Source of the DNA: Castellaniella sp.
GTDB taxonomy: Bacteria > Pseudomonadota > Gammaproteobacteria > Burkholderiales > Burkholderiaceae_B
Direction of reading: 5' to 3'
Length of the DNA: 33,799 nt
NCBI RefSeq assembly: GCF_004321985.1
Contig: NZ_SCQN01000038.1
Span: 1-33,799 of the forward strand
Below, one piece after another: positions 2,281 through 11,626 of the stretch. Each line of letters starts with the position of its first letter. The stretch's first letter is position 1. Position numbers and translations under genes: made by a program. The notes under the pieces were generated by a model. That model was given only the letters and a program-made list of their open reading frames with translations. It was not told where the DNA came from and did not search any database.

Positions 2281-3959
2281 ACCGTGCCCGCCTCACGGCC
2301 CAGGATTCCGCGGCCGATCTCAACCGCCCCATGACCCACGAGGAACGCCGCGTCATCCTGGCCTCCTCGATGGGGACCGTTTTCGAATGGTATGACTTCT
2401 ACGTGTACGGGTCGCTCGCCGCCGTCATCGCCCGCCACTTCTTTTCGGGCCTGAACCCGACGGCCGGATTCATTTTCGCGCTGCTGACCTTCGCGGCAGG
2501 CTTTGCGGTACGGCCCTTCGGCGCCTTGGTCTTCGGGCGCCTGGGCGATCTGGTGGGACGCAAATACGCCTTCGTCGTCACCATCCTGATCATGGGGCTG
2601 TCGACCTTCCTGGTGGGCGTACTGCCCTCATCGGCGTCGATCGGCACGGCTGCCCCCATGATCCTGCTGGGCCTGCGCCTGCTGCAGGGCCTGGCGCTGG
2701 GCGGCGAATACGGCGGCGCCGCCGTCTACGTGGCCGAGCATGCGCCCAATCACCGGCGCGGTTTTTTCACCAGTTGGATCCAGACCACAGCCACCACCGG
2801 CATGTTCCTGTCGCTGGTCGTGGTGCTGGGTACCCGCGTCACGCTGGGCAGCGAAGCCTTCGAATCCTGGGGATGGCGCGTGCCGTTCCTGATCTCGGTG
2901 TTTCTGCTGGTGATCTCGGTCTGGATCCGACTGCGGCTGCACGAGTCTCCAGCCTTCACACGCATGAAATCCGAGGGCTTGCTGTCCCGCGCGCCTATCA
3001 AGGAAGCCTTCGGCCGCTGGCGCAACCTGCGCCTGATCCTGCTCGCACTCGTCGGCCTGACTGCCGGTCAGGCGGTCGTCTGGTACACCGGGCAGTTCTA
3101 TGCGCTCTACTTCCTGACCGAAACCCTGGGCGTCGATGCAAACATTGCCAACATCCTGGTGGCGCTTGCGCTGCTGCTCGCCTGCCCCTTTTTCCTGGTG
3201 TTCGGCGCGCTGTCCGACCGCATCGGACGCAAACCCATCATCATGGCAGGCTGCCTGATCGCGATCCTCACGTATTTCCCGGTGTTCAAGGGTCTCACGC
3301 ATTTCGCCAACCCGGCGCTGGAACGGGCTCATGCGAACGCACCGGTGTATGTGGTGGCAAACCCAGCAAACTGCTCGCTGCAATTCAACCCGGTCGGCAT
3401 CGCCGCCTTTACCAGTTCATGCGACCTGCTCAAGTCCTTCATGGCCGAGAACTCGGTGCACTACATCAACCGGTCCGCACCGGCTGGCACCATCGCCTAC
3501 GCGCTGGTGGGAGACCAGCGGATCGAGGCCTTCGAGGGCGGCCACCTGGCTCGGGCTGAATTCGCCCGCCGGGACGTCGCACTGCAGGGGCGGCTCCGCG
3601 AGGCCATACGCGCCCACGGCTACCCGGCCTACGCCGACCCGACCCAGATCAACTACGTCATGGTGCTGCTGCTGTTGTTCTTCCTGGTGCTGCAAGTCAC
3701 GATGGTTTACGGGCCCATCGCTGCCATGCTGGTAGAGATGTTCCCCACGCGCATCCGCTATACGTCCATGAGCGTGCCCTATCACATCGGCAACGGATGG
3801 TTCGGTGGCTTTCTCCCGCCGATCGCCTTCGCCACCGTCGCCACCACCGGCAACATGTACGACGGTCTCTGGTACCCCATCATCGTGTGTACGATGACGC
3901 TGGTGGTGGGCCTGCTTTTCGTCAAGGAAACACCGCATCAGGATCTGAACGCGATCTGA
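2277..3959 (+). CDS. MHS-family major facilitator transporter with a large periplasmic insertion
   Basis: A 560-residue inner-membrane proton-coupled transporter of the metabolite:H+ symporter family (ProP, KgtP, CitA and ShiA relatives). The N-terminal motif GTVFEWYDFYVYG and the loop 2-3 motif GRLGDLVGRK (about 88-96) are typical, and the related motif GALSDRIGRKP (310-320) marks the cytoplasmic loop 8-9. The usual family length is about 430-500. The extra length is a hydrophilic stretch of about 120 residues (340-460) after TM9, which topology places in the periplasm; it contains two cysteines (C366, C382) that could pair. TM10-TM12 follow normally. The gene overlaps the kinase stop by four bases and is probably the regulated target of the two-component system. 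The substrate is unknown; an organic acid or betaine-type compound is plausible. Confidence 0.88.
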   Translation: MNRARLTAQDSAADLNRPMTHEERRVILASSMGTVFEWYDFYVYGSLAAVIARHFFSGLNPTAGFIFALLTFAAGFAVRPFGALVFGRLGDLVGRKYAFVVTILIMGLSTFLVGVLPSSASIGTAAPMILLGLRLLQGLALGGEYGGAAVYVAEHAPNHRRGFFTSWIQTTATTGMFLSLVVVLGTRVTLGSEAFESWGWRVPFLISVFLLVISVWIRLRLHESPAFTRMKSEGLLSRAPIKEAFGRWRNLRLILLALVGLTAGQAVVWYTGQFYALYFLTETLGVDANIANILVALALLLACPFFLVFGALSDRIGRKPIIMAGCLIAILTYFPVFKGLTHFANPALERAHANAPVYVVANPANCSLQFNPVGIAAFTSSCDLLKSFMAENSVHYINRSAPAGTIAYALVGDQRIEAFEGGHLARAEFARRDVALQGRLREAIRAHGYPAYADPTQINYVMVLLLLFFLVLQVTMVYGPIAAMLVEMFPTRIRYTSMSVPYHIGNGWFGGFLPPIAFATVATTGNMYDGLWYPIIVCTMTLVVGLLFVKETPHQDLNAI

Positions 3960-4272: not shown

Positions 4273-5175
4273 ATGTGGTTCAAGAATCTCAAGATCTACC
4301 GCCTCGCCCCCAAGACCCGTCTGACCGCCGCCACGGTTGAATCCGCTCTGGAATCGCTTGCCTTCCGGTCGGGCGGAAGCCAGGACAGCCAGGTATCGGG
4401 CTGGGTGTCGCCGCGCGACGACGGGGCGCTGGTCTACGAGATGAACGGCCAGATGCTGCTGCGCCTGCGCACGGAAAAGAAGCTGCTGCCCACGACCGTG
4501 ATCAACCAGGCCAGCCGCGCGCGCGCATCGGAAATCGAGGAACAGCAGGGTTACAAGCCAGGCCGCAAGCAGATGAAGGAAATCAAGGAGCAAATGACGA
4601 TGGAGCTGCTGCCGCGCGCCTTCGTCATTGCCCACGACACCTGGCTCTGGATTGATACCGTGAACGGCTGGGTGGCCATCGATGCGGCCTCCACGGCGCG
4701 TAGCGATGAGGTCCTGGGGCTGCTGGCCAAAACCCTGACGCCGTTTCCCATCGTGCCGCTGCATGTCGAGATGTCGCCGGCGGCCGCCATGACGATCTGG
4801 CTGTCGGAGGATGAACCCCCGGCCGGATTCACCATCGACCAGGACACGGAGCTGCGGTCGACCGGCGAATCACGCGCCACCGTGCGCTACGTGCGCCAGT
4901 CGGTGGAAATCGACGAAGTCCGCCGGCACGTTCAGGCCGGCAAGCAGTGCACGCGCCTGGCCCTGACCTGGAACGACCGGGTGTCGTTCGTGCTGACGGA
5001 TGCACTGGACGTCAAGCGGGTCGCACCGCTGGATGTGCTGAAGGACAATCAGGACGCGCAGGCGGCCAACGAGGCCGAGCAGTTCGACGCCGATACCGCG
5101 CTCATGACGGGCGAACTCGCCCGCCTGCTGGCCGACCTGGTGGAAGCGCTGGGCGGCGAGCACGCCGCCGCCTGA
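4273..5175 (+). CDS. rdgC: Recombination-associated protein RdgC
   Basis: A 300-residue nucleoid-associated protein that forms a ring-shaped dimer around double-stranded DNA and restrains RecA-driven recombination. The start [11 protein letters not shown] is the family signature and the length is the usual one for RdgC. An in-frame ATG at 4210 would add 21 non-conserved residues overlapping the promoter, so ATG 4273 is preferred even though no clear Shine-Dalgarno sequence precedes it. The tract [17 protein letters not shown] (about 91-107) and the downstream LLPRAF segment are also typical. The gene appears monocistronic: a terminator lies upstream and pyrB converges from downstream. The C-terminal alanine-rich tail (GGEHAAA) is not diagnostic. 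Confidence 0.95.
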
Positions 5176-5211
5176 GCGGTCAGGGCACCGAACGCAGGCG
5201 CGCCAGCGCCA

Positions 5212-5243
5212 GCAGCCCACCCGAAAGTATCCCCCTGGGCTGC
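5212..5243. terminator. Dyad between convergent rdgC and pyrB
   Basis: An 8-bp perfect inverted repeat (GCAGCCCA at 5212-5219, TGGGCTGC at 5236-5243) with a 16-base loop occupies the 75-base spacer between the convergent rdgC and pyrB stops. No T-tract follows on either strand, so it is at best a weak or factor-assisted terminator. Confidence 0.35.
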
Positions 5244-5250
5244 CTCGGAA

Positions 5251-6543
5251 TCAGTCGATTCCGTGAAAGACGCTGTCGTCCGGCCCGACATGCGAGGGCG
5301 GCAGCCAGGTCACATCGCGCAGTGAGTGCTGGACCAGGTTTTCAACCCCCAGCAGGACGGCAAAGATCGCCATGCGCACGGGAATCCCGTTGTCGGTCTG
5401 GCGGAAGATTGCCAGCCTGGAGTCATGGTTCAAGTCCGTGCTCAGGTCGTGCGCGCCTTCCCTGCTGTCGCGCGGCAGCGGATGCATGATGACGACATCC
5501 GGGCCGCAGCTCGCATCCACGAGGGCCTTGTTGACCTGGAAGTCTTCCGAATATCCTTCCATCTGTTCGCCCGTGAAGCGCTCCTTCTGGACCCGGGTAG
5601 CATAGATCACGTCGGCACCCTTCAGCCCCTGGGCCAGATCGTGCGTCTGCTCGATGACATGATCACTTCGGCCGACCTGCTCCAGCACATAGTCGGGCAT
5701 TTCCAGCCCCGGCGGCGAAACCAGCGTGAACTTCATGCCGCGATATAGCGCCAGCAGCTTGATGAGCGAGTGCACGGTACGGCCATATTTCAGGTCTCCC
5801 GCCATCACGATATGCGCCCCGTCGAGCAACTTCCCCAGGCGCGAAAACTCAGTCAGGATGGTATAGAGGTCCAGCAGCGCCTGACTGGGGTGTTCGCCCG
5901 CGCCGTCGCCGCCGTTGACCACCGGAATATTGGTGGCCGCCGCGAACTCCGCAACCGACCCCTGTTCAGGATGGCGGATCACCATGGCATCCACATAGCC
6001 GCTCATCACCCGGCTGGTGTCATAAATCGACTCGCCCTTGACCATGGATGAAAACGTGAAGCCCGTGGTGTCGCAGACGGAACCGCCCAGCCGGCAGAAC
6101 GCCGCCCCGAAACTGACCCGCGTGCGTGTGCTGGCCTCGAAAAACAGGTTCCCCAGCACGGCCCCCTCCAGAACGCGCGAGACCTTGTGGCGGCGGGCGA
6201 TCGGCTGCATCAGGTCCGCCACCCGGAACAGCTCTTCCACAGACTCGCGGCTGAACTGATCGACGGACAGTAATTGATGCTTGTTGTTGATCGCAATGCG
6301 ATCACGCAGCGATCCAGAACGTGCGCTCTGCGCATATTTCTGGAGCAGCTCGTCGTTGTCCACGATCTCAGTCACGAAGCGGCTCACCACTTCCGGCATC
6401 GAACGGGCTTCCTGGGAACCCTCGGGCAACAGCCAGGTATCCAGCGCCCGACGCTTCACCCCGATACGTGCCGCAAACACGTCACGAGTCAGATTCAGGC
6501 GGCGCATGGCGTCGCGTAGAAATACCTGTTGAGAGACGGCCAT
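5251..6543 (-). CDS. pyrB: Aspartate carbamoyltransferase with an N-terminal HTH-like extension
   Basis: A 430-residue enzyme that condenses carbamoyl phosphate and aspartate, the first committed step of pyrimidine synthesis. The catalytic part (about 89-430) has the carbamoyl-phosphate loop STRTRVSF (138-145), K169 in the SMVKGES loop, HPSQALLDL (218-226), the aspartate-loop motif TRVQKERF (316-323) and HPLPR (354-358). It resembles the E. coli catalytic chain, but that is only about 310 residues long. The extra 88 N-terminal residues include a segment (about 18-42) resembling an XRE-type helix-turn-helix: LTRDVFAARIGVKRRALDTW. No pyrI lies nearby. Two adjacent ATGs are possible; AGGAG at 6553-6549 is better spaced for the second (6543). 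A perfect palindrome sits directly upstream, suggesting autoregulation. Fusion and palindrome are seen; DNA binding is inference. Confidence 0.93.
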   Translation of the reverse strand: MAVSQQVFLRDAMRRLNLTRDVFAARIGVKRRALDTWLLPEGSQEARSMPEVVSRFVTEIVDNDELLQKYAQSARSGSLRDRIAINNKHQLLSVDQFSRESVEELFRVADLMQPIARRHKVSRVLEGAVLGNLFFEASTRTRVSFGAAFCRLGGSVCDTTGFTFSSMVKGESIYDTSRVMSGYVDAMVIRHPEQGSVAEFAAATNIPVVNGGDGAGEHPSQALLDLYTILTEFSRLGKLLDGAHIVMAGDLKYGRTVHSLIKLLALYRGMKFTLVSPPGLEMPDYVLEQVGRSDHVIEQTHDLAQGLKGADVIYATRVQKERFTGEQMEGYSEDFQVNKALVDASCGPDVVIMHPLPRDSREGAHDLSTDLNHDSRLAIFRQTDNGIPVRMAIFAVLLGVENLVQHSLRDVTWLPPSHVGPDDSVFHGID

Positions 6544-6588
6544 CATGACTCCTATATGCGCAATGCGCATATTTTGAAGAGAGTCATG
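6544..6588 (-). promoter_or_regulatory. Palindromic operator-like element in the pyrB leader
   Basis: A perfect 19-bp palindrome, ATATGCGCAATGCGCATAT, lies at 6554-6572, immediately upstream of the AGGAG ribosome binding site of pyrB. It is flanked by a second inverted repeat, CATGACTC (6544-6551) and GAGTCATG (6581-6588). On the minus strand a weak promoter (-35 TTGCGT, 17-base spacer, -10 CAAAAT) would place the palindrome over the transcription start. In RNA it would fold into a 7-bp hairpin with a 5-base loop abutting the ribosome binding site. It may act as a DNA operator, a translational hairpin, or both. Confidence 0.6.
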
Positions 6589-6643
6589 ATAGAACGCAAG
6601 AAAAATTTGCGCCGTGGCCTTCTTGGGTGACAGCGACGGAGAA

Positions 6644-8125
6644 TCAGCTCCCGCTCTTGACGCCGCCGTCAGCACTGCCACCGGAAGTTTCCGCCTTGGG
6701 CGCAGCCTTGGTGCCGCCGACTGCAGTTCCCGCCTTGGGTGCAGGATGGCTTGGCGCCAGGGACGAGGCCAATATCTGTCCAGGCAGCAGGTCGTGCGCC
6801 GAGGTCGGCGTCGTCTCCAGAGAAAATGCCACCGACGGGTCACCCTTTTCCAGGAAGGCTTGGGCATCGGCGGCCGACGCCGGTACGGCCTCAGGTCGCT
6901 GGCGCAAGGCCGACGCCAGGAACCAGTGAATCGCCTCCGGGCTCTGCCAGGGCGACGCGGCCTTCTGCATGGCGGTCACGCCAACCCGGTACTGAGCGCC
7001 TGGATCACCCTGCTTTGCAGCTGACTGAAGCCACTGGGCGGCCTGCACGGGATCTGCTGTCGCGACACCACTCAGGCCCTGGGTATACAACACACCCAGG
7101 CAATACTGAGCCCGGGCCATACCATCCTGAGCCTGCTTGCGATAGGTGTCCAGGCTGGCGGCGGTCTTCAGGTCGCAACCCCTGCTCTCGCTCTGATCGG
7201 CATTGTTGGCAGCCGTCAACAGCAGCGTGACGGCCTGCATCAGATTGGGTTTCTCCACCCCGAACCCCGTGGCATACATGAGCCCCAACGTCGCGCGTGC
7301 GCGTTCACTCTCGCGCTTGGCCGCCTTCTGGAAGAGCTTGACCGCCTGGGACACATCTCTGGCAACGCCGTCCCCCTTCAAGTACATGAGACCGAGGTTG
7401 AAATCAGCATTGGGGTCCTGGGCTGCAGCCGCCTTCCGATAAAACTCGATGGCCATCGCCGGATTTTTCTCCACGCCGGCACCCATGGCGTACATGGCCC
7501 CCAGATTCCCCAGCGCACGGACGTCCCGCCCCGACGATGCTGCCAACCGAAACCAGAAGATGGCTTGGGCGTCGTCCTTTTTGACCCCCTCGCCCAGCGC
7601 GTACATGCCGCCGACGCTGTTCTGCGCGGGTACGAAGCCGTTGCGCGCCGACGACAGATACCACTTGAACGCCTGCGCATGGTCACGTGGTACCCCCCGG
7701 CCCAGGTCATACATCACCCCCAGGTTGAACTTGGCTCGCGGAAAGCCGCGTTGCGCGGAGGCATCATAGAGTTTGGCGGCCCGCGCGAAATCGATACCGA
7801 CGCCGCGCCCCTTGTCATTCATGTAGCCAAGGCCATTTTCACCGACCGAGTTCCCGGCGTCGGCCGCCTTCCGGAACCAGGTGGCAGCATCCTCGACGCT
7901 GACGTCGGTACCGATACCGTCCTGCAGCAGAGCGCCCAGCATTGCCTGGGCATTCGAAGACCCCTGTTTGGCCTGCGTCTGGTACTGCGTAAACGCGCCC
8001 TTGAAGTCGGACTGCAGAAAAGCATCCACAGCGGCGGCCTGCGCAGCGCTGGGCAGACACTGCAGCACAGCACACAGCACGGCGCCAGAAACACCGGTTT
8101 CCAATGCAATACGACTGCTCGACAT
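6644..8125 (-). CDS. Secreted Sel1-repeat (tetratricopeptide-like) protein
   Basis: A 493-residue protein with a signal peptide (about 1-30, cleavage after AQA) followed by roughly eight Sel1-like repeats from about 58 to 400. Each has the pattern of alanine and glycine spacing seen in LGxMYxxGxGVxxDxxQAxxWFxxAA. Such solenoids act as protein-protein scaffolds in the periplasm or outer envelope; the partner is unknown. The tail (about 450-493) is low-complexity, rich in Ala, Gly, Lys and Pro. AGAGGAG lies 7 bases before ATG 8125. The gene is followed on the same strand by pyrB after 100 bases, but that spacer appears to contain pyrB's own promoter, so a shared function is not implied. It diverges from the urease operon. 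Confidence 0.85.
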   Translation of the reverse strand: MSSSRIALETGVSGAVLCAVLQCLPSAAQAAAVDAFLQSDFKGAFTQYQTQAKQGSSNAQAMLGALLQDGIGTDVSVEDAATWFRKAADAGNSVGENGLGYMNDKGRGVGIDFARAAKLYDASAQRGFPRAKFNLGVMYDLGRGVPRDHAQAFKWYLSSARNGFVPAQNSVGGMYALGEGVKKDDAQAIFWFRLAASSGRDVRALGNLGAMYAMGAGVEKNPAMAIEFYRKAAAAQDPNADFNLGLMYLKGDGVARDVSQAVKLFQKAAKRESERARATLGLMYATGFGVEKPNLMQAVTLLLTAANNADQSESRGCDLKTAASLDTYRKQAQDGMARAQYCLGVLYTQGLSGVATADPVQAAQWLQSAAKQGDPGAQYRVGVTAMQKAASPWQSPEAIHWFLASALRQRPEAVPASAADAQAFLEKGDPSVAFSLETTPTSAHDLLPGQILASSLAPSHPAPKAGTAVGGTKAAPKAETSGGSADGGVKSGS

Positions 8126-8389
8126 GAATTCGCTCCTCTACCACATCAAATGTCCCGGCCAAGGCAAGACCACCGTGGCCCTCTGCCGGGGTCGGCACGA
8201 CTGACAGTGATAGCAGGGATTACGCGTTGTGACCATCGGTACAAACAGCAACATTGCCGTTGTCGGTCCCCCGCCCGCCGCCGCGCGTTGCATAATTATC
8301 CGGACCCGATACTCGGACGGAAAACCCCCCATGGACTGGTGCCTGACCGCGGCCAGCAGAACCGCCGGCAGGCGAGCCCGATACATTGC
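8126..8389. promoter_or_regulatory. Divergent spacer between the Sel1 gene and ureD
   Basis: This 264-base spacer must carry the promoters for the Sel1-repeat gene and the urease operon. An AT-rich island, TTGCATAATTAT, at about 8288-8299 is the likeliest -10 area for ureD. No good -35 and no clear sigma-54 -24/-12 pair could be placed, although urease operons are often nitrogen-controlled. The regulator is therefore not identifiable from the sequence. Confidence 0.3.
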
Positions 8390-9253
8390 ATGATGCCGCA
8401 GACGATTTCAGACACCAGGACCTGGCAGGCGACCCTCGATCTCGGCTTCTCACGGAAGGGTGCGCGCAGCGTACTGTCGGCCCAGAACCATACTGGTCCC
8501 CTGCTGGTGCAGCGCGCCCTATACCCCGAAGGCCCGGAAGTCTGCCACATGGCCATACTGCACCCGCCATCCGGCATCGCGGGGGGCGACGAAATCGACA
8601 TCAACATCCACGTCGCCAAAGAGGCTCACGCGACATTGACCACCCCTGGCGCCACCCGTTGGTACAAAGCCAATGGCCGGCGGGCGCGGCAGACCATTCG
8701 CCTGACGGTCGAACCCCAGGCACGGCTGGACTGGCTGCCGATGGAAAACATCTTTTACGAACAGGCAGACGCAACGAATCAGATCGAAATCAGCCTGCAA
8801 CCCGGGGCGCGCGCGATCGGATGGGAAATTTCGCAACTCGGCTCCATCCTGAAGGACGGCCATTGGGGATCGGGACGGGTCCGATCATCCGCTTCCCTCA
8901 GAATCGCAGACCGGTTGCTCTGGGTGGAGGAAGGCTCCATCGCGGCCACTGATCCCTTGAGAACCAGCGTGGCTGGCCTCGCAGGACTGCCGATCCACGC
9001 CACGCTGTGGTGTTTCGGCCCCACCCTGGCTGCGGCACCCACCGAATCGCTCAGCGCTCAGATGCCTTGGCGGGAGGACTTGCGCGCCGGCATGACGGTG
9101 ATAAGCTACGACACGACCCAGTCGCTTCACATGGTCCGTTGCACGGGTCTGCACGCAGAAGACGTCCGCAATCTGCTGGTTGAGGCGTGGATGATCCTGA
9201 GGCGCGACGTGTTGGGTATCGTCGGCACACCTCTCCGCCTATGGAACACCTGA
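8390..9253 (+). CDS. ureD: Urease accessory protein UreD
   Basis: A 287-residue urease maturation factor that binds apo-urease and recruits UreF and UreG for nickel insertion. Family features are the N-terminal [19 protein letters not shown], the segment [29 protein letters not shown], and [13 protein letters not shown]. It is the first gene of a compact ureDABCEFG cluster. Two tandem ATGs (8390, 8393) are possible starts and no strong ribosome binding site is visible; the reading frame stays open far upstream, but that part overlaps the divergent Sel1 gene and is not UreD-like. Confidence is high in the function, moderate in the exact start. Confidence 0.93.
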
Positions 9254-9293
9254 TCCGCGACAACCCGCCGCACCCTTTGAAAGAAGCCTGGTC

Positions 9294-9596
9294 ATGGAAC
9301 TGACGCCCCGAGAAAAAGACAAGCTGCTGATCTTCACCGCAGCCTTGCTGGCCGAGCGACGACGCGCCCGCGGCGTGAAACTCAACTACCCTGAAGCCAC
9401 GGCGCTGATCACAGCGGCAGTCATGGAGGGCGCGCGCGACGGAAAAACGGTGGCCGAGCTCATGACGGAAGGCGCCCGCATTCTGACCAAGGACGACGTC
9501 ATGGACGGCATCCCCGAGATGATTTCCAGCATTCAGGTCGAAGCCACCTTCCCGGACGGCACCAAACTGGTCACCGTCCACAACCCCATCCAGTAG
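9294..9596 (+). CDS. ureA: Urease gamma subunit
   Basis: The 100-residue gamma structural subunit of the cytoplasmic nickel urease, which hydrolyses urea to ammonia and carbamate. It starts [23 protein letters not shown] and contains [11 protein letters not shown] and the closing VTVHNPI, all standard for UreA, at the usual length of 100. It lies 40 bases after ureD and 9 bases before ureB. Separate gamma and beta genes are the common bacterial arrangement, unlike the fused subunit of Helicobacter. Confidence 0.97.
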
Positions 9597-9605
9597 AGGC
9601 CAGAC

Positions 9606-9914
9606 ATGATTCCCGGTGAAATCATGGCCGAAGACGGGGCAATCACCCTGAACGAAGGCCGCCCCACCATTCGCCTGGAGGTCGTCAACAGCGGTGACCG
9701 GCCGGTACAGGTAGGCTCCCACTATCATTTCGCGGAAGTCAACGACGCCCTGCTGTTCGACCGCAAGGCTGCACGGGGATTCAGGCTCAACATCATCGCC
9801 GGCAACGCAGTGCGCTTCGAGCCGGGGCAGCGCCGTACGGTGGAACTGGTCGCCTTCGCCGGCGCCCGAAGAATCTTCGGATTCCAGGGAAAGATCATGG
9901 GAGCGCTGGAATGA
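9606..9914 (+). CDS. ureB: Urease beta subunit
   Basis: The 102-residue beta structural subunit of urease, with the family start MIPGEI and the motifs [19 protein letters not shown] and [13 protein letters not shown]. Normal length. The stop codon overlaps the ureC start (ATGA at 9911-9914), so beta and alpha subunits are translationally coupled, consistent with equimolar assembly of the (alpha-beta-gamma) trimer. Confidence 0.97.
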
Positions 9915-11626
9915 CGACGATCTCCCGCAGGGGCTATGTGGAAACCTTCGGACCCACCGTCGTCAACGGCGTGGGCGACCGGGTACGGCTGGCCGATACC
10001 GATCTCATCGCCGAAGTCGAGCACGACCACACCCTCTACGGTGAAGAGGTCAAATTCGGCGGCGGCAAGGTCATTCGCGACGGCATGGGCCAGAGCCAGC
10101 GGCTCGCGCGCGAGTGCGCCGACATGGTGATCACCAACGCGCTCATCATCGATGCCGTGATCGGCATCGTCAAGGCCGACATCGGGATCAAGGACGGCCT
10201 GATCAGCGGCATCGGCAAAGCCGGCAACCCGGACACCCAGCCCGGAGTCGACATCATCATCGGCGCCTCCACCGACGCCATCGCCGGCGAAGGCATGATC
10301 GTCACGGCCGGGGCCATCGACACGCACATCCACTTCATCTGTCCCCAGCAGATCGAGGCCGCCCTGACCAACGGCACGACGACCATGATCGGCGGCGGTA
10401 CCGGGCCGGCTGCGGGCACCCAGGCGGTCAGCAGCACCAACGGCCCCTGGAACATCATGGCCATGATGCAGGCGCTGGATGTCTTCCCGGTGAACACCGG
10501 GCAACTCGGCAAAGGCAGCACCAGTTCTCCGGATGCCGTACGCGAACAGATCCGGGCAGGTGCCATGGGCCTGAAGATCCATGAAGACTGGGCCGCCACG
10601 CCCGCCGCAATCGACAATGCGCTGAGCATCGCGGACGAAATGGACGTCCAGGTAGCCCTGCACAGCGACACCCTGAATGAATCAGGCTTCGTCGAGGACA
10701 CGTTCGCGGCCTTCAAGGGCCGCACCATCCACTCCTTCCACACCGAGGGCGCGGGCGGCGGACACGCCCCCGACATCATCCGGGCAGCCGGCATGCCCAA
10801 CGTTCTGCCGGCCTCGACGAACCCGACCATGCCGTTCACGCGCAACACCATCGATGAGCACCTGGACATGCTCATGGTGTGCCACCATCTGGACCCGTCG
10901 ATTGCCGAGGACCTGGCCTTTGCCGAAAGCCGCATCCGGCGGGAGACCATCGCGGCCGAAGACGTGCTGCACGACCTGGGTGCGCTCTCCATCATGAGCT
11001 CAGACTCCCAGGCCATGGGCCGGGTGGGCGAAGTCGTGCTGCGTACCTGGCAGACCGCCCACAAGATGAAGCGGCAGCGCGGCCCACTGGAGGGCGACAA
11101 CGCTCGCCGCGACAACGAACGGATCAAACGCTACATTGCCAAATACACCATCAACCCCGCACTGGCACAGGGCATATCCCACCTGATCGGTTCGGTGGAA
11201 GTCGGCAAGCTTGCCGACCTCGTCATCTGGAACCCCGCCTTCTTCGGCGTGAAACCATCGCTGGTCGTAAAGGGCGGCATGGTGGCCATGGCCAGCATGG
11301 GGGATCGCGGTGGCTCCATCGCCACTCCACAGCCCAAGATCCTGGAGCCTATGTGGGGAAGCTACGGGCGGGCCTTGCGCACATCAGTGCAGTTCGTGTC
11401 CCAGGCGGCATTGGACAACCCCGAAATCCACCAGCTCGGCCTGAACAAGCGGCTGGAAGCCGTCCACGGATGCCGCACGATCACCAAGCACGACATGGTG
11501 CGCAACAACTGGCTGCCCCACATCACAGTCGACCCCCAGACCTATGAAGTCTTCGCCAACGGTGAACTGCTGACTTGCGAGGCCGTGAACGAACTTCCCA
11601 TGTCCCAACGCTACTTCCTGTTCTGA
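9911..11626 (+). CDS. ureC: Urease alpha (catalytic) subunit
   Basis: The 571-residue catalytic subunit carrying the dinuclear nickel site. All active-site residues are present: H139 and H141 in THIHF, the carbamylated lysine K222 in GLKIHEDW, H251 in ALHSDT, H277 in SFHTEG, the mobile-flap C324-H325 (VCHHLD) and D365 in SSDSQAMG. Each is offset by five from Klebsiella numbering. The end, MSQRYFLF, is the family C-terminus. The gene overlaps ureB by four bases and is followed two bases later by ureE. There is no sign of truncation or of a missing ligand, so the enzyme should be active once loaded with nickel. Confidence 0.98.

Follow-up and report, generated by a model that had tools for sequence, protein, structure and literature searches.

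A long aspartate carbamoyltransferase of Burkholderiales with a predicted N-terminal helix-turn-helix domain and a conserved palindrome at its promoter: a candidate self-repressing enzyme

Aspartate carbamoyltransferase (ATCase) is the textbook allosteric enzyme, and in Escherichia coli the expression of pyrB is controlled by attenuation. Some enzymes of other pathways are fused to a DNA-binding domain, a ribbon-helix-helix in PutA and a winged helix-turn-helix (HTH) in BirA, and among small HTH proteins Aca1 and HigA are autoregulatory. PutA and BirA are described as metabolic enzymes acting as repressors of genes of their own pathway (PMC6978683); the long PyrB studied here would, judging from its sequence, resemble them in being an enzyme with a repressor role at its own pathway's promoter, although the enzymes are different and long PyrB carries a predicted XRE-type HTH. 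A second ATCase of about 430 residues with HPLP was noted in Burkholderia by a 2015 review (PMC4581275), which gave its role as unknown and whose main text makes no mention of a helix-turn-helix or of DNA binding for it. No description of an HTH-bearing or self-repressing PyrB, or of its operators, was found in the literature accessible without subscription. The analysis below suggests that a branch of the ATCases carries its own repressor, with an operator on the promoter and often a second one within its own codons.

The window is a stretch of 33,799 nt from Castellaniella sp. (contig NZ_SCQN01000038.1), and the features discussed are listed in Table 1. Its PyrB is a full-length member of the NCBIfam equivalog NF008853/PRK11891 (819 bits over 1-430/430, curated cut-off 560 bits) and also matches TIGR00670 (291.7 bits, above the cut-off of 236.95). 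The first-pass annotation, made from the letters of the window, knew of no described autoregulatory PyrB of this type; the long form already constitutes a named family, but one named for its enzyme activity alone, and in the literature found neither the HTH and operators nor a DNA-binding N-terminus is described. A start-codon error as the origin of the long form was rejected, since the model of the family has the same first residue and M1 is present in 96 of 99 distinct N-termini. By Pfam, OTCace_N spans residues 90-229 and OTCace residues 242-396, with nothing N-terminal of these over the cut-off, in good agreement with the 88 or so extra residues that had been estimated to precede the core. 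The catalytic motifs, also judged intact at first pass, were all found in the alignment to solved ATCases (STRTR, SSMVKGES, HPSQALLD, GDLKYGRTVHS, TRVQKERF and HPLPR, against 1ml4), and from both OTCace domains together with the full motif set (STRTR, the K of SSMVKGES, HPxQ, GRTVHS, RxQxER, HPLP) we infer that the enzyme is catalytically active. Among the PDB sequence matches listed (60 of 85), no alignment starts before residue 84. The full-length AlphaFold2 model, built from a shallow alignment, had a pLDDT of 65.9, with part of the core below 50.

Table 1. Features of the long pyrB locus, in coordinates of the window.
Feature	Position	Strand	Basis
Long pyrB (PRK11891-type ATCase), 430 aa	5251..6543 (including stop)	-	ORF translation and NF008853 match
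C-terminal tail, residues 401-430	5254..5343	-	Translation and conservation profile
Catalytic core, residues 89-400	5344..6279	-	Pfam and PDB alignment
Variable linker, residues 63-88, bearing O2	6280..6357	-	Entropy profile
O2, imperfect second copy TATGCGCAGAGCGCACG, centre 215 nt after the A of the ATG, within the linker	6320..6336	.	O1 weight-matrix scan
N-terminal HTH domain (predicted), residues 1-62	6358..6543	-	AlphaFold2, Foldseek, sub-threshold HTH_3, conservation of residues 1-40
Predicted recognition helix, residues 31-37 (RRALDTW)	6433..6453	-	AlphaFold2
T36 codon, putative base-specifying residue	6436-6438	-	Comparison of homologues
O1 palindrome ATATGCGCA-T-TGCGCATAT, centre 20 nt 5' of the A of the ATG	6554..6572	.	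Inverted-repeat search and conservation
Candidate promoter: TTGCGT 6594-6599, AAATAT 6569-6574, 19-nt spacer	6569..6599	-	Inferred by alignment on O1

Besides long pyrB, the genome contains exactly one OTCace_N gene, which we take from its sequence to be argF; because this single other gene reads like argF, long PyrB is very probably the only ATCase of the genome. The first reading had noted no pyrI nearby, and a profile search of the whole genome (PF01948) gave no match at E≤0.001, with 7 of 14 controls positive. Compared with PyrB/PyrI of E. coli, the window PyrB has the catalytic chain and its motifs in common, whereas its genome is without PyrI, the protein has an extra predicted HTH, and a promoter-operator is proposed instead of attenuation; this may offer an answer to the question of how pyrB is regulated in Burkholderiales that have no PyrI. 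Elsewhere in the window (8386-11626, plus strand) lie urease-like ORFs, presumably ureD, ureA, ureB and ureC to judge by their translations.

The AlphaFold2 model of the N-terminal domain (48 homologous N-termini) showed helices at residues 5-16, 20-27, 31-37 and 51-62 with moderate confidence (mean pLDDT 76.8), and the two middle helices fall in the HTH-like segment (about 18-42) recognised at first pass. In a Foldseek comparison with the PDB, the best 20 matches to this model were all DNA-binding HTH proteins by title (Aca1, the HigA2 antitoxin and lambda repressor as the best, besides Aca2, ClgR, C.AhdI and a designed DNA-binding protein), and some of the Aca1 structures contain palindromic DNA; the E-values are weak (best 0.15, none of 229 at ≤0.001), and a few enzymes appear from rank 21 onward. 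Of the two checks that the first-pass annotation had proposed for the N-terminus, structure prediction gave an HTH for residues 1-62 with XRE-type repressors as the best matches, and Pfam did find HTH_3 (residues 9-34), but at 14.0 bits and below the gathering cut-off of 23. HTH_3 was nevertheless the commonest sub-threshold Pfam match to the domain (29 of 48 homologues at E≤10). A sequence search of the PDB with the domain reached a best E of only 0.68. Across long PyrBs, conservation of residues 1-40 equals that of the catalytic core (mean entropy 0.41 bits, vs 0.42 bits for residues 90-400), with 0.97 bits for residues 41-66 and 1.37 bits for residues 67-80. According to the model, the N-terminus of PyrB is an XRE-type HTH fold, the same as in Aca1 and the HigA-type antitoxins. 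Direct sequence homologues are found among the HTH proteins of Burkholderiales plasmids, several of which have a palindrome before their own gene. These mobile-element regulators are stand-alone proteins of 64-85 aa and go with CCC or CTC, whereas in PyrB the domain forms part of an enzyme of biosynthesis and goes with CGC. Long PyrB suggests that a core metabolic gene captured a domain from mobile-element regulators.

The domain might instead be a structural or docking module without DNA binding, used for oligomerisation or for binding dihydroorotase as in the Pseudomonas type, since N-terminal extensions of other ATCases serve assembly and ATCase trimers assemble into larger oligomers only through bridges. 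We regard this as very improbable: no pyrC-like ORF was recognised by eye in the ORF list from 2.5 to 10.5 kb, the fold matches are DNA-binding regulators by title, 5 of 8 plasmid homologues are annotated as such (the other 3 being hypothetical or otherwise annotated), and the operator covaries with residue 36 and with the state of the helix, as described below. Bridging of trimers and DNA binding by the same domain are compatible.

The DNA at 6544-6588, which the first-pass annotation had proposed for a test of binding, contains a 9-bp perfect inverted repeat, O1 (dinucleotide shuffles of the window gave a mean of 0.04 matches at ≤3 mismatches). We assembled 125 long-pyrB loci with 116 distinct upstream regions: 80 came from a scan of named genomes, as the best among 580 full-length relatives, 16 from a survey of the order (a long PyrB scored over the cut-off in 17 of 300 genomes, the window's genome included) and 28 more from a survey of the family (135 genomes reached the cut-off for a long PyrB and 65 did not), and the window itself made up the rest. 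O1 was present at ≤4 mismatches in 19 positions in 115/116 distinct upstream regions, vs 115/2320 Markov shuffles, and its core TAYRCGC-NNN-GCGYRTA at ≤1 mismatch in 111/116. A first control, the initial 250 nt of the coding sequence, had sites at ≤4 mismatches in 95/116 loci, most of which proved to be a second copy, O2 (89). Across 91 non-redundant regions the O1 centre lies anywhere between 19 and 100 nt before the ATG, and the information content drops outside O1; the variable distance and the confinement of conservation to O1 therefore argue that O1 is not simply shared leader ancestry.

A scan from -250 to +1290 with the O1 weight matrix placed the sites of the 116 loci in two zones, the 125 nt upstream and +200 to +225; the sole exception was one site in L133. 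The downstream copy, O2, was found in 89 loci, and 27 were without it at the score used. One might explain O2 as a by-product of protein conservation, against which its codons argue: resampling of synonymous codons attained the O2 score in 3.7% of trials, and in the 80 loci with O2 at ≤1 mismatch the site uses GTA in 57, GCA in 20 and CAA in 72, codons little used in the rest of these genes (GTA 5% of Val, GCA 7% of Ala, CAA 15% of Gln). The centres of O1 and O2 are 232-281 bp apart in loci with ≤2 mismatches in both sites, and their spacing showed no clear helical phasing (at 10.5 bp the resultant was 0.39, and neighbouring periods gave at least as sharp a value). Some PyrBs without O2 have additional upstream sites or half-sites (L047, L048 and, at 3910 and 3941, L245). 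The last of these is a long pyrB on a 373-kb plasmid of Comamonas odontotermitis with proC annotated directly upstream, and its two imperfect sites form a direct repeat 31 bp apart.

A consensus scan of the window region found no promoter, and the -35 and -10 boxes of the window are poor; the candidate promoter is weak in this species and stronger in relatives. Of 72 upstream regions with dissimilar flanks, 47 have a TTGACA-like hexamer (≥4/6) 15-18 nt upstream of the left O1 arm (in shuffles the mean was 10.5 and the maximum 24), and the left arm reads TAATAT in 47 of the 72. From the spacing of the hexamer and the TAATAT arm it follows that O1 covers the likely -10 box and start point, a position that is likely to represent the geometry of a repressor. 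Inverted repeats can also form short stems, and in the window O1 lies near the ribosome-binding site, so that O1 and O2 could be read not as DNA operators but as hairpins in the RNA that serve attenuation or control of translation. This reading is scarcely credible in our opinion, because 42 of 111 O1 copies have a position that would not pair in RNA, the left arm sits at the expected -10 box, and the association with residue 36 (see below) tracks a DNA recognition helix; Rfam had no match in window 5000-7200 at E≤1, and on this result and the non-pairing positions we rejected a hairpin for O1.

The exact O1 pattern occurs at a single place in the window's genome, O1 itself, and on this ground a general operator was rejected. 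With ≤1 mismatch allowed, the pattern has 7 places in total vs 16 for a reversed-pattern control. In the order survey, an exact match to TATRCGCNNNGCGYAYA was found in 13/17 genomes with a long PyrB vs 32/283 without. In the family survey, TAYRCGCNNNGCGYAYA, a looser pattern tallied by hand and counted anywhere in the genome, not necessarily at pyrB, was matched exactly in 116/135 genomes with a long PyrB vs 12/65 others; in two of these 12 the assembly seems to have truncated the gene or to lack it, and among the 135 the HTH has been lost in G603 and G701. A separate transcription factor might bind these sites, the PyrB HTH having another target or none: palindromes often serve as operators, and the pattern is matched in some genomes that have no long PyrB. 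However, the exact site is single in the window's genome, matches in the order are far commoner among genomes with a long PyrB, O1 has gone where the HTH is lost, degenerate or T36A, and the sites of homologues follow residue 36; a separate factor is, in our assessment, unlikely.

In a tree of the catalytic core, HTH-bearing PyrBs cluster with those that lost the HTH (support 97/93, in a midpoint-rooted tree with long branches and unsettled bootstrap), which is consistent with one gain of the HTH and later losses. Three short members of the family that lost the HTH (L207-L209) are without O1, as are five from small genomes with a degenerate recognition helix (L211, L212, L214, L302, L303; L304 and L305, in which our patterns matched no start, were left out of the comparison). 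In L210, T36A is found in an otherwise nearly unchanged HTH, and both O1 and O2 are absent. L133 (RRELDAW, also T36A; same contig as L297) has no upstream site and is the sole locus without O1 among the 116; a 1-mismatch site inside its own HTH codons (981-997) is unexplained. Several proteins have serine at this position: L306, of the same genus as L210 and L133, keeps both sites, L044 and L045 keep O1 and an intact helix, and L213 keeps O2 with merely a poor O1-like site upstream. By comparison of these loci, O1 and O2 depend on an intact recognition helix. Several of the losses (L207, L208, L211, L212, L214, L302, L303) are in genomes of 0.7-0.9 Mb of the same family, in which the HTH is degenerating or lost and the ATCase core is kept.

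A comparison of 35 homologues of the domain outside PyrB comprised small plasmid-borne HTH proteins of Burkholderiales, neighbours of AbiEii-type nucleotidyltransferases and two pPIWI_RE_Y N-termini (L228, L229); the set excludes 19 weaker matches, and its 8 stand-alone members come from 42 counted records (37 of them listed), which overlap and include some PyrB. Residue 36 could be placed in 34 (L287, without a helix match, was dropped). A palindrome with a gap of 3 and arms of ≥5 was found upstream in 19/34 (chance about 20% each), at about 140 nt from the start codon in L238 and L243; none qualified in the other 15 (L240, L241, L244, L260, L279, L280, L283, L285, L288-L293 and L296), L240 having a CCCC site with one mismatch that was left uncounted. 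With K at position 36 the best palindrome was CCCC-NNN-GGGG in 11/11 homologues, with N it was ACTC-NNN-GAGT in 4/4, and with T it was (C/T)GC-NNN-GC(G/A) in 3/4, the exception being L294, in which the longest palindrome differs and TACGC-NNN-GCGTA ranks second. By best palindrome, 18/19 homologues therefore agree with a residue-36 code, a count in which several are near-copies or single clades; because many homologues are related, we give no formal probability. Lysine and asparagine facing G and A on the opposite strand are textbook recognition chemistry, and K, N and T at this residue form a natural series of residue-to-base recognition. In a domain tree of 62 columns, K36 proteins fall in several places, and the T36 proteins outside PyrB (L228, L229, L294, L295) group together far from PyrB, with which 3 of these 4 distant proteins have TACGC-NNN-GCGTA in common. 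Of the arguments that O1 would be read by the PyrB HTH itself, the code is the strongest.

We consider it highly probable, on these comparisons, that long PyrB binds O1 via its HTH and negatively regulates its own gene. That a PyrB with a built-in DNA-binding domain might regulate transcription was proposed at first pass, and the idea has gained support: the HTH is predicted, and the palindrome at the promoter accompanies the gene, is missing from loci that lost the HTH or have a changed recognition helix, and follows residue 36 in homologues. Of the marks of an enzyme-repressor of the PutA/BirA kind, a DNA-binding domain fused to the enzyme is seen here in the predicted fold, and a conserved, HTH-dependent operator at its own promoter in the comparison of loci. 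Two N-terminal HTH domains would bind O1 as a dimer, and PyrB so bound, over the -10 box and start point, would block RNA polymerase, acting in repression rather than activation. O2, about 235-280 bp downstream in most species, might serve as an auxiliary operator for the same oligomer, through a loop or a roadblock; the HTH dimers might bridge catalytic trimers, and substrate or nucleotides might control the repression. A fuller version is tentative and, on balance, rather doubtful: the ATCase oligomer would be a ligand-sensing repressor in which HTH dimers bridge catalytic trimers in the place of PyrI and an O1-O2 loop is opened or closed by carbamoyl phosphate/aspartate in the active site or by nucleotides, the HTH having been captured once from mobile-element regulators and retuned by T36 from CCC/CTC to CGC. 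If the ligand-sensing reading were true, one protein would carry out the committed step of pyrimidine synthesis and also meter how much of itself is made. Long PyrB offers a compact, testable system for feedback from enzyme to transcription.

Some of the homologues outside PyrB lie in other genetic contexts. L228 and L229 are pPIWI_RE_Y proteins by Pfam with a homologue of the PyrB HTH at the N-terminus and palindromes upstream, and the short frames L294 and L295 have a similar HTH together with TACGC palindromes; by analogy, the defence islands of L228 and L229 (and the loci L294 and L295) may be autoregulated like PyrB. In L225, L226 and L227, HTH homologues adjoin nucleotidyltransferase ORFs and have CCCC-NNN-GGGG palindromes upstream. 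The neighbours are AbiEii/DUF6036 by Pfam in L226 (AbiEii just under the cut-off) and L227, and the three HTH proteins could possibly represent an unrecognised family of antitoxins.
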